A DNA stretch of 64,000 nucleotides, taken from assembly GCF_019393635.1 (NCBI RefSeq), contig NC_057867.1:310121-374120 (forward strand), given 5' to 3'. The translations under genes were made by a program, and so were the position numbers. How positions within the stretch are numbered: position 1 is the first letter of the stretch; every line of letters begins with the position of its first letter. The notes under the pieces are model-generated. The model saw nothing but the letters and a program-made list of their open reading frames with translations. It was not told the origin of the DNA and made no database searches. Of the stretch, positions 3,698 through 52,523 are shown in pieces. Source of the stretch: Dromiciops gliroides (lineage: Eukaryota > Chordata > Mammalia > Microbiotheria > Microbiotheriidae).

Positions 3698-4349
3698 AAG
3701 GGGGTGTGTGTGTGTGTGTAAGGTCATGGAAGTCTGAATCCCTTTGTTATGTATGTAGCTTGTTGTGTGTGTGCAAGATCATGGAAGTATTAATACCTTT
3801 GTTTATGCCTTCTTGTGTGTATGTAGGTAGAATCCTCTGTGTGTGTGTGTGAGTGTGTTTATGGGTTTGTAAGGTCGTGAGAGTATGAATCCCTTTGTTT
3901 ATGCTGCTTTTGTCGTAAGTAGGATTCTGTGTTTCTGTGCGTGTGTGTGTTTGTGTGTAGGATCATAGGAATATTAATCCCTTTGTTTATGCTTTTGTTG
4001 TGGATGTAAGTAGAATTGTGTGTGTGTGTAAGATCATGGAAGTATTAATACCTTTGTTTATGCCTTTTTTGTGTATTTGGGTAGAATCCTCTGTGTGAGT
4101 GTGAGTGTGTGTTTATGGGTTTGTAAGGTCTTGAGAATATGAATCCCTTTGTTTATGCTGCTTTTGTTGTGTAAGTAAGTAGGATTCTGTTTGTGTGTGT
4201 GTAAAGTCCTGGGAATATCAATCCCTTTCTTTATGTCTTTGTTGAGTGTGTAGGTAGGATCGTGTGTCTTTGTGTGTGTGTCTGTGTGTGTAGGGTCATG
4301 GGAATAATAATCCCTTTGTTTATGCCTTTGTTGTATGTGTAGGTAGGGT

Positions 4350-4384
<35 letters not shown>

Positions 4385-15620: not shown

Positions 15621-15625
15621 CTTCT

Positions 15626-15822
15626 TCCTTCCTTCCTTCTTTCCTTCCTTCCTTCCTTCCTTCCTTCCTTCCTTCCTTCCTTCCTTCCTTCCTTCCTTCC
15701 TGCCTTCCTGCCTTCCTGCCTTCCTGCCTTCCTGCCTTCCTGCCTTCCTGCCTTCCTGCCTTCCTGCCTTCCTGCCTTCCTGCCTTCCTGCCTTCCTGCC
15801 TTCCTGCCTTCCTTCCTTCCTT

Positions 15823-15854
<32 letters not shown>

Positions 15855-15887
15855 CCTTCCTGCCTTCCTTCCTGCCTTCCTTCCTTT
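15626..15887. repeat. (TTCC)n / (CCTGCCTT)n array
   Basis: A roughly 260 bp pyrimidine-rich tetranucleotide array. Pure TTCC lies at both ends, with an inner block in which every second unit is TGCC (8 bp period) and a TTCCTTCCTGCC 12 bp period at the 3' side. It adjoins the tail side of a minus-strand WSINE1, so it probably grew from the SINE tail. Confidence 0.95.
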
Positions 15888-31716: not shown

Positions 31717-31720
31717 AGAC
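31717..31720. repeat. Target-site duplication AGAC (left)
   Basis: AGAC stands directly before the TGTAACG end and recurs at 32953-32956 directly after the CGTTACA end. The length fits retroviral integrase. Confidence 0.8.
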
Positions 31721-32082
31721 TGTAACGATTGGAATAACGCCACCTGCTGGATACTTACTGTAGAAGAGTTCTGCCCATGAAGCGAAGGTCTTTGAGAGCA
31801 AGACCAGGAATCAGGAAGTGACGCGGGCTAGTGGGAGGAGGAAGGAAGAGACTGGCGCTCGGTCTCGCACGCTCTTTTTCCTCTGGACTCTGGCGGAGAA
31901 GGGAGCTAGAAATGCGCTCTCCCTTTAATAGATAGAAATCTAGGCCTTTCTCTCTCTCTTTACCAAATTCTTATTCTCCTTAATAAATGCTTAAAAGTCT
32001 AACTCTTGCTAAAGTTTATAATTTATTGGCGACCACTCATTAGATATTTTAGACAGTTTAGCTAGAATTTTAGCCCTTAACA
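31721..32082 (+). mobile_element. Left LTR of the palindromic element
   Basis: Starts TGTAACG and ends CCCTTAACA, and has an AATAAA signal at 31982-31987. Sense is left to right, pointing at the GC-rich centre. A CTCF-type core lies 17 bp inside the U3 end. Confidence 0.85.
31738..31750 (-). promoter_or_regulatory. CTCF-type core motif (left arm)
   Basis: The minus strand reads CCAGCAGGTGGCG, which fits the CTCF core consensus at every position. Whether it is bound is not known. Confidence 0.6.
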
Positions 32083-32084
32083 GA

Positions 32085-32122
32085 TGGTAACCACGAAGGG
32101 ATTCAAACCCTCAATCTTCTGA
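32085..32122 (+). promoter_or_regulatory. Primer-binding site, tRNA-Arg(UCG), 38 nt match
   Basis: TGGTAACCACGAAGGG and the following bases are complementary to the 3' part of vertebrate tRNA-Arg(UCG) as I recall it, through acceptor, T arm, variable loop and the 3' side of the anticodon stem. One position differs, in the T loop (a CpG in the tRNA gene). Similarity stops exactly at the anticodon loop. A standard retroviral primer site is 18 nt. The mirror copy is at 32551-32588. Confidence 0.8.
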
Positions 32123-32263
32123 GTTGACCTCATCACTGCTTATACTCATCTTTATTCCCACTTAAACCATGAGGTCACAACACAGGATATAACCCATTGG
32201 CAGTACATTGATGTGGGGAAGCTCAACTTATTTGGTACTTCCAATCACATGGAGTTGATACTG
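32123..32263 (+). other. Leader-like segment of the left arm
   Basis: 141 bp without a recognised motif in this direction. On the opposite strand it has an AATAAA (32152-32157). It could be the viral leader, or captured host sequence. Confidence 0.5.
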
Positions 32264-32409
32264 CCGAGGCCGCTCCCGCCCGGGCTGCGTGGTCCGACGA
32301 GGCGCCTGAGGCCGGCCGGCCGGGGGCACTTGCTGGGCCTCCACTGCGGGCGGGAGGGGCGGCCGAGCTCCGGCCCAGCCCGGCCCAGCCCAGCCCCGGG
32401 GAGCGGCGC
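32264..32409. other. GC-rich centre of the palindrome
   Basis: 146 bp, very rich in G and C with many CpG sites and CCCAGCCCGG-type repeats. It is not palindromic as a whole, though GGCCGGCCGG is locally self-complementary. It resembles a CpG-island fragment more than retroviral sequence. Origin unknown. Confidence 0.6.
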
Positions 32410-32515
32410 CAGTATCAACTCCATGTGATTGGAAGTACCAAATAAGTTGAGCTTCCCCACATCAATGTACTGCCAATGGGTTATATCCTGTGTTGTGACC
32501 TCATGGTTTAAGTGG

Positions 32516-32521
32516 GAATAA
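32516..32521 (+). promoter_or_regulatory. AATAAA downstream of the palindrome centre
   Basis: A transcript started in the left LTR would meet this poly(A) signal about 106 bp after the GC-rich centre. The mirror signal serves the opposite direction. Function is inferred. Confidence 0.4.
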
Positions 32522-32550
32522 AGATGAGTATAAGCAGTGATGAGGTCAAC

Positions 32551-32588
32551 TCAGAAGATTGAGGGTTTGAATCCCTTCGTGGTTACCA
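32551..32588 (-). promoter_or_regulatory. Primer-binding site of the right arm
   Basis: Exact mirror of 32085-32122. On the plus strand this reads as the 3' half of a tRNA-Arg ending in CCA, including the same T-loop difference. Confidence 0.8.
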
Positions 32589-32590
32589 TC

Positions 32591-32952
32591 TGTTAAGGGC
32601 TAAAATTCTAGCTAAACTGTCTAAAATATCTAATGAGTGGTCGCCAATAAATTATAAACTTTAGCAAGAGTTAGACTTTTAAGCATTTATTAAGGAGAAT
32701 AAGAATTTGGTAAAGAGAGAGAAAAAGGCCTAGATTTCTATCTATTAAAGGGAGAGCGCATTTCTAGCTCCCTTCTCCGCCAGAGTCCAGAGGAAAAAGA
32801 GCGTGCGAGACCGAGCGCCAGTCTCTTCCTTCCTCCTCCCACTAGCCCGCGTCACTTCCTGATTCCTGGTCTTGCTCTCAAAGACCTTCGCTTCATGGGC
32901 AGAACTCTTCTACAGTAAGTATCCAGCAGGTGGCGTTATTCCAATCGTTACA
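32591..32952 (-). mobile_element. Right LTR of the palindromic element
   Basis: Inverted copy of the left LTR, 362 bp, differing at one visible base. Sense is right to left. Confidence 0.85.
32923..32935 (+). promoter_or_regulatory. CTCF-type core motif (right arm)
   Basis: CCAGCAGGTGGCG on the plus strand. With the left copy it forms a divergent pair about 1.2 kb apart. Confidence 0.6.
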
Positions 32953-32956
32953 AGAC
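32953..32956. repeat. Target-site duplication AGAC (right)
   Basis: See 31717-31720. Confidence 0.8.
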
Positions 32957-33625: not shown

Positions 33626-33751
33626 TCTAAGGGTAACATCCCCTGACAATGGTGAGCTCATGTTTAAAATGATCTTAGGGATGATATAATGCCCCATCTC
33701 AATCCACAAGGCTCCCTCTTCTGTAACTTCAAAGGATTTTTGTTTTTTTTT

Positions 33752-33888
33752 AGTGAGGCATTTGGGGTTAAGTGACTTGCCCAGGGTCACACAGCTAGTA
33801 AGTGTTAAGTGTCTGAGGCCGGATTTGAACTCAGGTCCTCCTGACTCGAGGGCTGGTGCTCTATCCACTGCGCCACCTAGCTGCCCCC
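33752..33888 (-). mobile_element. WSINE1 copy
   Basis: TSD CTTCAAAGGATTTTTGTTT / CTTCAAAGGATTTTTTT. Confidence 0.93.
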
Positions 33889-34489: not shown

Positions 34490-35030
34490 TCCATTTGATC
34501 AGTTAAATCCATCCCTATTACTACATCACTTCCTCTTGTCATCCTTCCCTATCTCTTATCTGTTTCTCCTATTATTTCCCTATTGGATAAGATAAATTTT
34601 CATACACAACTGAGTATAGGTATATAGTCTTCCCTCTTTGGAAAGATTCCAGTGAATGATGTTCAAGTGTTGCCCACTAACTCCCCCCAGCCCCAACTTC
34701 CTCCTTCCTTGTAAAAGCTTTTTCTTGTATGCTTCCTTTCTTTTTTCTTTCTTTCCTTCTTTCTTTTTGGTGAGGCAACTGGGGTTAAGTGACTTGCCTA
34801 GAGTCACACAGCTAGAAGGTGTCAAGTGTCTGAGGCTGGATTTGAACTGAGGTCCTCCTGAATCCAGGGTCAGTGCTCTATCCACTGTGCCACCTAGCTG
34901 CCCTTTATGCTTCTTTTCTATGAGAAAATCTCCCCCATTCTATCTCTCCCTTCTCCCAGTGTGTCCTATTATCCCTCCTTGCAGGGCAGTGGTGTTTGGA
35001 GTGAAAACTCTTTCACGAATCATATTGTAT
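34490..35030 (-). mobile_element. L1 LINE fragment (5' ORF2/inter-ORF region, antisense)
   Basis: ATTGGATAAGATAAATTTTC and GTAAAAGCTTTTTCTTG match the antisense order of the L1 5' half. Split by a WSINE1. Confidence 0.6.
34763..34904 (-). mobile_element. WSINE1 copy
   Basis: TSD TATGCTTCCTTTCTT / TATGCTTCTTTTCT. Confidence 0.92.
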
Positions 35031-36742: not shown

Positions 36743-36802
36743 TCAAATAATATGTAGGGTATATAACCTTTGGCAAAATTATAAAACCAATTTACAACGA
36801 TC

Positions 36803-37345
36803 TGGGAGATCTCCAGTCCCCCAGTAAGTTTTATTACTTGTCACAGTTCTACCAATTAGCACTATTCACTTTACTTCTGCTTAGTTCCCACATGCCAGCT
36901 ACACCTTAGTTTATGGCCTGTAATAAAAAACTCCCCTCTCACATGTCAGAACCCCAGTACCTGTCATGGATTAATTGCAGTGAGATAAGGGAGTGATTTC
37001 TGCCTCCCTCTTTCTTTGACATTCCTCAGACTTGTACCCCTTCCCCTTCTCCCCTTTGTTCTTGGACATGTCTCCATACATGGATCACGAGCTGGGCACG
37101 CACCTTGGGTGAGACAGGATTGGATGTTAGATTGTGAGCTCATCCACCCTAGGTGTACGTGGGGACAGTCCTTTTCAAGATGACTATAAAAACCTAGAGG
37201 ATTGGGCCTATCTTTGCAAGACTTCAATGTGTAATTGGGTTTTGCCCGTCCTCGTGAGGATGTAATAAACCTGTCTCTGCTTGACTTGGTGGTCTCCTCG
37301 AGTTATTTGGATCAACTGAGGCAGTTTGTCCCAAACACCTAGGAT
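36803..37345 (+). mobile_element. LTR (family A, copy 2), fossil
   Basis: TATAAAAA box at 37185-37192 and AATAAA at 37264-37269. Closely matches the reverse complement of 523-1080. The 5' side lacks the first part that copy 1 has. Confidence 0.7.
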
Positions 37346-40268: not shown

Positions 40269-42245
40269 GAACTGGGTAAAGTAACAGTAGATAATATAAA
40301 ATACTTGGGAGTCTACTTGCCAAGACAAACCCAGGAACTCTATGAACACAATTACAAAACACTTTTCACACAAATCAAATCAGATCTAAATAATTGGAAA
40401 GATATCAATTGCCAAGCTAATATAGTAATATAGTAAAAATGACAATTCTACCTAAATTAATTTACTTATTCAGTGCCATACCAACCAGACTACCTAAAAA
40501 TTATTTTATAGAGCTAGAAAAAATAATAACAAAATTCATCTGGAAAAACAAAAAGTCAAGAATATCAATGGAAATAATGAAAAAAAATGCACAGGAAGGT
40601 GGGTTAGCTGTACCAAAACTGGAGCTCTACTGTAAAGCGGCAGTCATCAAAACTATTTGGTACTGGCTAAGAAATAGAGTGGAAGACCAATGGAATAGAC
40701 GAGGCACAGGAGACACAGTAGTAAATGACATTAGTAATGTACTGTTTGATAAACCCAAAGACCCCAGCTTCTGGGATAGGAATTCAGTATTTGACAAAAC
40801 CTGCTGGGAAAACTGGAAGATAGTATGGCAGAAATTAGGCATAGACCAACATCTGATACCTTATACTAAAATAAGGTCAAAATGGATACATGATTTAGAC
40901 ATAAGAGGTGATACCATAGGTAAATTAGGAGAGAAAGGAATAGTCTACCTTTCAGATCTTTGGAAAGGAAAACAGCTTATGACCAAACAAGAGATAGAGA
41001 ATATTATGAAATGCAAAATGGATGATTTTGATTACATTAAATTTAAAAGTTTTTTTTTTACAAACATAAGCAATACATCCAAAATTAGAAGGGATGCAGA
41101 AAGCTGGGAAACAATTTTTATGGCCGGTACTTCTGATAAAGACCTCATTTCTAAAATATATAGGAAACTAAATCAAATTCATAAGAATCCAAGTCATTCC
41201 CCAATTGAGAAATGGTCAAAGGATATGAATAGGCAGTTTTCTGATGAAGAAATCAAAGCTATCTATTCCCATATGAAAAAATGCTCTAGATCACTATTGA
41301 TTAGAGAGATACAAATTAAAACAACTCTGAGGTACCACCTGACACCTATCAGATTGGCTAATATGACAAAAAAGGAAAATAATAAATGTTGGAGAAGCTG
41401 TGGAAAAATTGGAACACTAATGCATTGTTGGTGGAGCTGTGAACTGATCCAACCATTCTGGGGAGCAATTTGGAATTATGCCCAAAGGGCTATAAAGCTG
41501 TGACCCAGCAATACCACTTTGGGGTCTTTTTCCCAAGGAGATCATAGAAAAGGGAAAAGTACCCACATGTTCAAAAATATTTATAGCTGCTCTTTTGGTG
41601 GTGGCAAGGAATTGGAAATTGAGGGGTTGCCTATCAGTTGGGGAATGGCTGAACAAGTTGTGGTATATGAATGTAATGGAATTCTATTGTGCTGTAAGAA
41701 ACAATGAGCAGGAGGAGTTTGAAGAAGCCTGGAAGGACTTGCATGGACTGATGATGAGTGAGATGACCAGAACCAGAAGAACATTGTACACAGTATCATC
41801 AACATTATGTGTTGATCAACTGTGATGGACTGGCTTCTTCTCATCACTGCAATGAATGGTACAGGAGAGTTCCGGGGGACTCATGATGGAGAGGGCTCTC
41901 CAAATCCAGAAAAAAAAAGAACTGTGCAATGTGGATCCTGATTGAACCATACTATTTCTTTTGGGTTTGGTGCTGTTGTTTTTCTATTTTGAGGTTTTTC
42001 CTTTTTGCTCTGATTCTTCTCTTATAGCATGACTGATATAGAAATATGTTTAATGTTGTTATGTATGTGTATATGTGTATATATATATATATTTATTTAT
42101 ATTTATAACCTATATCGGATTGCCTGCTGTCTGGGGGAGGTGGGGAGGGAGGGAGAAAAATTGGAAATTGGAAATCTTATGTAAACAAATGCTGAAAGCT
42201 ATCTCTACATGTAACTGGAAAATAATAAAATACTTTTATTTTTAA

Positions 42246-47790: not shown

Positions 47791-47951
47791 TTTTTTTTTT
47801 TTTTTTTTTTTTTTTAGTGAGGCAATTGGGGTTAAGTGACTTGCCCAGGGTCACACAGCTAGTAAGTGTTAAGTGTCTGAGGCCGGATTTGAACTCAGGT
47901 ACTCCTGACTCCAGGGCCAGTGCTCTATCCACTGTGCCACCTAGCTGCCCC
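47791..47951 (-). mobile_element. WSINE1 copy
   Basis: TSD GGCATCCTCTAAATC on both sides. Confidence 0.95.
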
Positions 47952-50179: not shown

Positions 50180-52523
50180 TTAAAAAAAAAAAAAAAAGTA
50201 TTTTATTATTTTCTAGTTACATGTAGAAATAGTTTTCAACATTTGTTTATATATGATTTCAAATTTCAAATTTTTCTCCCTCCCTCCCTCCCCTCCCTCC
50301 CCTAGACAGCAGGCAATCTGATATAGGTTATATATACATAATATCATTAAACATATTTCTGTATTAGTCAGGTTATACGAGAAGAATCAGAGCACAAAGG
50401 AAAAACCTCGAATCAGAAAACCAACAGCAAAAGAAATAGTATGGTCCACTCAGCATCCATATTCCACAGTTCCTTTTTTCCTGGATTTGGAGAGCCTTTT
50501 CCATCATGAGTCCTTTGGAACTTTCTTGTTCCATTGGATTGGTGAGAAGAATCTAGTCTATCACAGTTGATCAACACATAATGTTTATGATACTGTGTAT
50601 AATGTTCTTCTGGTTCTGGTCATCTCACTCATCATCAGTCCATGCAAGTCCTTCTAGGCTTCTTCAAACTCCTCCTGCTCATTGTTTCTTACAGCACAAT
50701 AAAATTCCATTACATTCATATACCACAACTTGTTCAATCATTCCCCAATTGATGGGCATCCCCTCAATTTCCAATTCCTTGCCACCACAAAAAGAGCAGC
50801 TATAAATATTTTTGTACATGTGGGTCCTTTTCCCTTTTTTATGATCTCTTTGGGAAAAAGACCCCAAAGTGGTATTGCTGGGTCAAAGGTATGCACAGCT
50901 TTATAGCCCTTTGGGCATAATTCCAAATTGCTCTCCAGAATGGTTGGATCAGTTCACAGCTCCACCACCAATGCATTAGTGTTCCAATTTTTCCACAGCT
51001 TCTCCAACATTTATTATTTTCCTTTTTTGTCATATTAGCCAATCTGATAGGTGTCAGGTGGTACCTCAGAGTTGTTTTAATTTGTATCTCTCTAATCAAT
51101 AGTGATCTAGAGCATTTTTTCATATGGGAATAGATAGCTTTGATTTCTTCATCAGAAAACTGCCTGTTCATATCCTTTGACCATTCTTCAATTGGGGAAT
51201 GACTTGGATTCTTATAAATTTGATTTAGTTTCCTATATATTTTAGAAATGAGGCCTTTATCAGAAGTACCGGCCATAAAAATTGTTTCCCAGCTTTCTGC
51301 ATCCCTTCTAATTTTGGATGTATTGCTTATGTTTGTAAAAAAAAAAAACTTTTAAATTTAATGTAATCAAAATCATCCATTTTGCATTTCATAATATTCT
51401 CTATCTCTTGTTTGGTCATAAGCTGTTTTCCTTTCCAAAGATCTGAAAGGTAGACTATTCCTTTCTCTCCTAATTTACCTATGGTATCACCTCTTATGTC
51501 TAAATCATGTATCCATTTTGACCTTATTTTAGTATAAGGTATCAGATGTTGGTCTATGCCTAATTTCTGCCATACTATCTTCCAGTTTTCCCAGCAGGTT
51601 TTGTCAAATACTGAATTCCTATCCCAGAAGCTGGGGTCTTTGGGTTTATCAAACAGTACATTACTAATGTCATTTACTACTGTGTCTCCTGTGCCTCGCC
51701 TATTCCATTGGTCTTCCACTCTATTTCTTAGCCAGTACCAAATAGTTTTGATGACTGCCGCTTTACAGTAGAGCTCCAGTTTTGGTACAGCTAACCCACC
51801 TTCCTGTGCATTTTTTTTCATTATTTCCATTGATATTCTTGACTTTTTGTTTTTCCAGATGAATTTTGTTATTATTTTTTCTAGCTCTATAAAATAATTT
51901 TTAGGTAGTCTGGTTGGTATGGCACTGAATAAGTAAATTAATTTAGGTAGAACTGTCATTTTTACTATATTACTATATTAGCTTGGCAATTGATATCTTT
52001 CCAATTATTTAGATCTGATTTGATTTGTGTGAAAAGTGTTTTGTAATTGTGTTCATAGAGTGCCTGGGTTTGTTATATTATCTACAGCAACTTTAAATGG
52101 AATTTCTCTTTCTATCTCTTGCTGCTGGACTTTGTTGGTCATGTATAGAAATGCTGATGATTTATGTGGATTTATTTTATATCCTGCTACTTTGCTAAAG
52201 TTGTTCATTGTTTCAAGTAATTTTTGAGTTGATTCTCTAGGATTCTCTAAGTATACCATCATATCATCTGCAAAGAGTGATAGTTTTGGTTCCTCCTTGC
52301 CTATTCTAATTCCTTTAATTCCTTTTTCTTCTCTGATTGCTAAAGCTAACATTTCTAGGACAATATTGAATAATAGGGGTGATAATGGACATCCCTGTTT
52401 CACCGTGATATTATTGGGAAGGCCTCTAACTTATCTCCATTGCATATAATGCTTGCTGATGGTTTTAGGTAGATACTGCTTATTATTTTAGGGAAATCTC
52501 CACCTATTCCTAAACTCTCAATG
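50180..52523 (-). mobile_element. Young L1 LINE, 5'-truncated, inverted relative to 38.9 kb copy
   Basis: Starts (3' end) with poly(T) at 50180-50200 and runs to 52523 on the minus strand. Frames: 210 codons (51327-51959), 145 codons (50839-51276) and 116 codons (52053-52403, with [11 protein letters not shown] and [10 protein letters not shown]). The 200 or so codons after MTVLPKLIYLF are the same as in the 40439 frame of the other L1 apart from the third residue. A longer T-run at FKSFFF shifts the frame where the other copy stays open. It is truncated in the reverse transcriptase and joined to a MIR. Confidence 0.93.

Follow-up and report, generated by a model that had tools for sequence, protein, structure and literature searches.

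A palindromic LTR element with two U3 ends in Dromiciops gliroides: apparent insertion of one end in two back-to-back copies

The stretch analysed here, called the window below, comprises 64,000 nt of contig NC_057867.1 of Dromiciops gliroides (NCBI RefSeq assembly GCF_019393635.1, positions 310,121 to 374,120 of the forward strand). Close to its middle lies a palindromic element of about 1.2 kb, in which two inverted arms, each with an LTR-like sequence at its outer end, enclose a short GC-rich centre. The features are listed in order, with positions counted from the first base of the window; tRNA-Arg stands for a presumed host tRNA sequence.

31717..31720, no strand: target-site duplication AGAC, left copy, read from the flanking letters
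31721..32263, plus strand: left arm, 543 bp, with U3 at its outer end; differs from the right arm at one base
31721..32082, plus strand: LTR-like sequence TG...CA, 362 bp, with AATAAA at 31982-31987 and 12 CpG (o/e 0.71)
32085..32102, plus strand: primer binding site (PBS), 18 nt, complementary to the 3' end of tRNA-Arg including CCA
32103..32122, plus strand: over-extension into the next 20 nt of tRNA-Arg, 19/20 identical, to tRNA position 39
32123..32263, plus strand: inner part of the arm, 141 bp (weak tRNA match only in Rfam)
32264..32409, no strand: unique centre, 146 bp, 84.2% GC, 20 CpG
32269..32277, plus strand: 9-bp stem, left half GCCGCTCCC, 5 nt inside the left end of the centre
32399..32407, plus strand: 9-bp stem, right half GGGAGCGGC, 2 nt inside the right end of the centre
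32410..32952, minus strand: right arm, 543 bp, the left arm in inverted form, from the arm comparison
32551..32588, minus strand: inverted copy of the 38-nt tRNA-Arg stretch
32591..32952, minus strand: inverted LTR, U3 end outward, 99.7% identical to the left LTR
32953..32956, no strand: target-site duplication AGAC, right copy, read from the flanking letters

The two arms are equal in length and differ at a single base (C at 31950 against T at 32723, both in the same sense), a pairing far beyond chance. A preliminary description had already given two 543-bp arms with one mismatch and no length difference, a 146-bp GC-rich centre and a direct AGAC outside both ends, all of which stand. Its term “mirror images” does not, as the arms are reverse-complement repeats, and its range of 31717-32956 takes in both AGAC copies, the element itself being 31721-32952. 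Automated repeat finding returned arms of 567 nt at 98% identity because it ran on into the centre. Outward, the pairing of the arms halts at the terminal TG (left) and CA (right); beyond these, positions 1-4 are unpaired and 7 of 20 are paired. AGAC follows directly, in the same orientation on both sides, and the flanks aligned around one AGAC, printed side by side, make a plausible empty site; by itself, a 4-bp duplication has a chance of 1/256. TG...CA termini with a target duplication in the range of 4-6 bp are those of an LTR element, while one U3 and one U5 end, as in a solo LTR or a pair of LTRs in the same orientation, are not found: the second LTR is inverted, and both outer ends are U3. 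The earlier proposal of integration through two U3 ends is in keeping with this, since a single event fits both the exact TG/CA ends and the AGAC duplication.

All the evidence on the element comes from a single copy in a single assembly. Since inverted duplications occur, as do artefacts of folded-back reads, an ordinary insertion that was later inverted or duplicated, or an error of assembly, might be considered; the chance of this is slim. Both outer breakpoints of a rearrangement would have to hit the LTR end beside the target duplication exactly, and a folded-back read would explain neither the halt at TG/CA nor the AGAC copies and the unique spacer. There are 13 CpG in each arm, none of which differs between the two, and the sole mismatch lies outside CpG; the insertion is therefore probably young, unless gene conversion has kept the arms alike.

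The CpG o/e is 0.71 in the LTR and 0.77 in the centre, compared with 0.13 in the leader behind the LTR (32083-32263, 1 CpG), which resembles the window average of 0.17 and is unlike both LTR and centre. Retroviral internal sequence can be CpG-poor too, so that the low value of the leader is no proof that it came from the host. Matches to LTR, leader and centre elsewhere in the 64-kb window are all short (13-21 bp, E 0.35-0.79), and there are no other LTR copies in it. A 25-mer of the LTR and a 27-mer of the leader gave 0 exact matches in viral_contigs, as did a 21-mer of the LTR in genome_contigs; these collections are of viruses and prokaryotes and need not contain the host genome, so that the result carries little weight.

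These observations bear on the idea of a non-autonomous palindromic (foldback) LTR family, in which an earlier palindrome was mobilised whole by an autonomous relative. The clean termini with target duplication, the compact size of 1.2 kb and the CpG kept in LTR and centre suggest a recently mobile unit of this kind. However, a palindrome without a pair of LTRs in the same orientation has no evident route of replication through RNA, a purine run of at least 11 is absent within 110 bp of either outer end, and a second copy is absent from the 64 kb, a small sample. On balance such a family is distinctly unlikely.

Sixteen open frames of at least 40 aa overlap the element, the longest of 101 aa, and no gag/pol coding region is present in its 1.2 kb. 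A coding origin of the inner arm was considered for the 101-aa frame (32123-32428) and rejected, with 0 Pfam families found in a scan that covered this one frame of the 16 together with its first 47 aa. A protein search with the same frame listed 16 candidates, all of them above E 1, and the PDB contained no match to the first 47 aa at E <= 10.

Repeats of other kinds occur elsewhere in the window. There are many interspersed copies of about 150 bp (e.g. 33740-33886, 34757-34903 and 47801-47951), with ∼88-95% identity in the pairs shown, which we take to resemble a marsupial tRNA-type SINE. An inverted LINE-like pair at 40325-42243 and 50188-52073 (93% identity) contains open frames of up to 360 aa that by eye resemble the C-terminal part of L1 ORF2. 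A further inverted pair, at 523-1081 and 36801-37336, aligns over 559 columns with 94% identity. Of the tandem repeats, the one at 15624-15886 has about 33 copies of the 8-bp unit CTTCCTTC and contains, on the minus strand, an open frame of KEGR-type repeats, and the array at 3764-4382 is rich in TG steps and has nested periods of 71-89 and 254 bp.

Two bases behind the LTR end, a PBS for a host tRNA begins, and the likeness to that tRNA does not end with it. Each arm carries a 38-nt copy of tRNA-Arg, 20 nt beyond the usual 18-nt PBS, with 37/38 identities to the presumed sequence of an isodecoder that was picked after the window had been inspected; the isodecoder considered first gives 34/38 overall and likewise 19/20 past the PBS. 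The chance of 19/20 identity in that part is about 6e-11. An ungapped, anchored comparison past 32122 finds the next three bases mismatched and a score of 0 for further extension, whereas a gapped alignment runs on for 21 more columns with 12 matches. With this continuation the copy has a less clear-cut end than in the ungapped comparison; we take it to be presumably chance. By tRNA numbers counted by hand, the copy stops at position 39, two bases short of nucleotide 37.

The Rfam tRNA model has a full-length match in each arm at 18.6 bits, below the gathering score of 29, and at this sub-threshold level it assigns the stretch of PBS and copy to the T-arm and acceptor strand. A full-length tRNA or tRNA pseudogene in the arm was rejected: resemblance to the 5' half of tRNA-Arg does not exceed that of controls, its level being reached by 202/2000 Markov resamples and by 275/2130 stretches of the window, and the similarity is claimed for the 38 nt only. 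ARAGORN reports 0 tRNA genes in the whole window. A DNA transposon with long terminal inverted repeats would account for inverted ends with a short direct duplication, but the arm reads as an LTR, behind which come a PBS and a tRNA copy, an arrangement that, to our knowledge, such transposons lack, and this origin is extremely improbable.

Normal plus-strand strong-stop DNA includes 18 nt copied from the tRNA, with the stop at m1A58; here the copy is 38 nt long. For HIV-1 and tRNA-Lys3, a 2026 review reports minor strong-stop products that go beyond m1A58 and end at the modified nucleotide 37; only the shorter products can act as active templates, and the over-extended ones do not serve in second strand transfer (PMC13191261). 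The same source places m1G37 in tRNAs for codons starting with C, CAN excepted, in Salmonella, and calls the mechanism common to eukaryotes (PMC13191261). By analogy, this codon rule would include the CGN (Arg) tRNAs. Because its tRNA copy ends near nucleotide 37, the arm looks like an over-extended plus-strand strong-stop DNA for which the regular strand transfer failed. The preliminary description had suggested an aberrant reverse-transcription product without mention of the 38-nt tRNA-Arg copy behind U5, which is new here and lends that suggestion further support.

Between the tRNA copies and the centre, the arms continue for 141 bp each, and the composition then changes abruptly. The best GC change points, 32263 and 32410, coincide to within a base with the inner ends of the arms; a few neighbouring bases score almost as well, and the arm side of both tests is identical sequence. 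Among the top 20 listed from a scan in 10-bp steps, the best 146-bp stretch outside the element has 72.6% GC and 1 CpG. As the GC content switches so abruptly at their inner ends, the composition suggests that the arms end at a template end or a junction, more than at an arbitrary fold-back point.

Just inside the centre, the 9-bp stem is mildly unusual: a stem of 9 bp arises within the outer 25 nt in 113/5000 mononucleotide shuffles, and within the outer 14, 16, 18 and 20 nt in 6, 15, 31 and 36 of 3000, widths that were picked after the stem was seen. The centre was rejected as a strong natural hairpin (z 0.59; 148/200 shuffles at least as stable). As inverted copies of each other its halves show a weak likeness, with a score reached by 48/1000 shuffles and 73.6% in BLAST. 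The earlier phrase “folded back and copied” is thus borne out in part, the stem fitting it and the GC switch at the inner arm ends fitting a joining of template ends better; fold-back and copying is one of several ways to join the arms.

Two other ways of joining would do without fold-back. Two plus-strand DNAs may have copied host-linked transcripts, with two different GC-rich first exons and the same second exon, and been joined at their 3' ends. This would explain the abrupt GC switch at both inner arm ends, and the shared boundary, read in transcript sense, is CAG, like the end of an exon before a donor site; a self-complementary GGCCGGCCGGCC within the centre, read by eye, may be counted on the same side, but it is probably common by chance in such GC-rich DNA. 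Two independent, identical template switches would be improbable unless driven by homology, and this explanation is highly unlikely.

Alternatively, two linear viral DNAs of an ordinary family may each have given one U3 end to a single intasome, the inner parts then being lost and the remainders end-joined after cuts at 543 bp and 689 bp. In-vitro assays with short viral ends pair two like ends from separate molecules. The use of short viral-end DNAs in assays is described (PMC11054761). With this route, self-copying becomes unnecessary and the equality of the arms automatic. It demands, however, that the tRNA copy, the 141 bp and the centre all be normal internal sequence, and that the cut at 543 bp coincide with the GC switch by accident; we regard it as unlikely.

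In the reading preferred here, to which a probability of about one half is given, reverse transcription of an LTR element of endogenous-retrovirus type went astray and integrase inserted the product in a single event. One end of a retrovirus-like element thus seems to have entered the genome twice over, the two copies standing back to back, and the insertion is probably a fossil of failed reverse transcription in which too much of the tRNA primer was copied. Plus-strand DNA would have started at the polypurine tract and made U3-R-U5, a start that the exact outer TG fits. It would then have copied the tRNA-Arg primer for 20 nt past the m1A58 stop and halted near nucleotide 37; for this step the 38-nt copy is seen in the DNA, and the modified bases come from the literature. 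Failing in second strand transfer, the over-extended strong-stop DNA may have been prolonged by 141 nt on a different template. Either a pair of these ends, or one of them and a copy made from it, would have been joined tail to tail via the 146-bp centre, be it by snap-back self-priming on the 9-bp stem, by annealing of two plus strands, or by run-off ends with GC-rich filler. Integrase would finally have inserted the duplex with its two U3 ends in concert, leaving AGAC, a step based on the outer ends and the duplication. Plus strands are initiated at the polypurine tract and so carry U3 at their 5' end, in line with the U3 seen at both outer ends of the insertion.

A self-primed hairpin has one duplex end, and the target duplication needs two 3' ends, so that this form would require a further step. 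From the general mechanism of integrase, the forms able to integrate directly would be tail-to-tail annealed plus strands or a copied hairpin. It may also be that the leader of this LTR family normally includes the 38-nt tRNA copy and the inner 141 bp, in which case the unusual part would be the two-U3 palindrome only. Against the preferred reading, integration in infection is stated to require the action of integrase on U3 and U5 ends (PMC11054761), and the integrase of RSV may recognise the two differently (PMC12789967); a U3-U3 pair is not its normal substrate. Aberrant insertions are known with one end joined by integrase and the opposite end by enzymes of the host (PMC5041404), a route disfavoured here because AGAC flanks two exact U3 ends.

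More generally, dead-end strong-stop DNAs that overran the tRNA might be rescued in the germ line as tail-to-tail palindromes with two integrase-inserted U3 ends, and so give rise to short inverted LTR elements that are neither solo LTRs nor proviruses; we offer this as a tentative suggestion. The element is regarded as a variant of aberrant LTR-element integration, from one uncorroborated copy. If the interpretation is right, the locus would be a natural record of over-extension past m1A58 and of integration through two U3 ends, such by-products of reverse transcription could enter the germ line, and repeat annotation may conceal elements of this type as inverted pairs of solo LTRs. The preliminary description knew of no described element with this layout; that no title or abstract opening among the literature matches listed describes a palindromic two-U3 integrant agrees with this and adds a little weight to it.

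Compared with known systems, the element shares TG...CA ends, a 4-bp target duplication, AATAAA and a host-tRNA PBS with the solo LTRs and proviruses of vertebrate endogenous retroviruses, but differs from them in its inverted second LTR with both outer ends U3, in a longest open frame of 101 aa, and in a tRNA copy of 38 nt instead of 18. The complex LTR insertions that arose by template switching in Triticeae are similar in being an abnormal reverse-transcription product that entered in one insertion, with a target duplication and matching outer LTRs; they carry a third, internal LTR and two cores, and a palindrome is not described in the part of the source drawn on here (PMC1950507). LTR-mediated retrocopies (PMC5408686, reporting Tan et al. 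2016) likewise combine a template switch from an LTR element to another RNA with insertion by integrase; a palindrome is not part of the description in the portion of that source used. The over-extended strong-stop DNA of HIV-1, primed by tRNA-Lys3, has the same order of U3-R-U5 and then a tRNA copy ending near the modified nucleotide 37 (PMC13191261). There it is a minor biochemical product and not an active template (PMC13191261), whereas in Dromiciops it has apparently been integrated, in extended and palindromic form.
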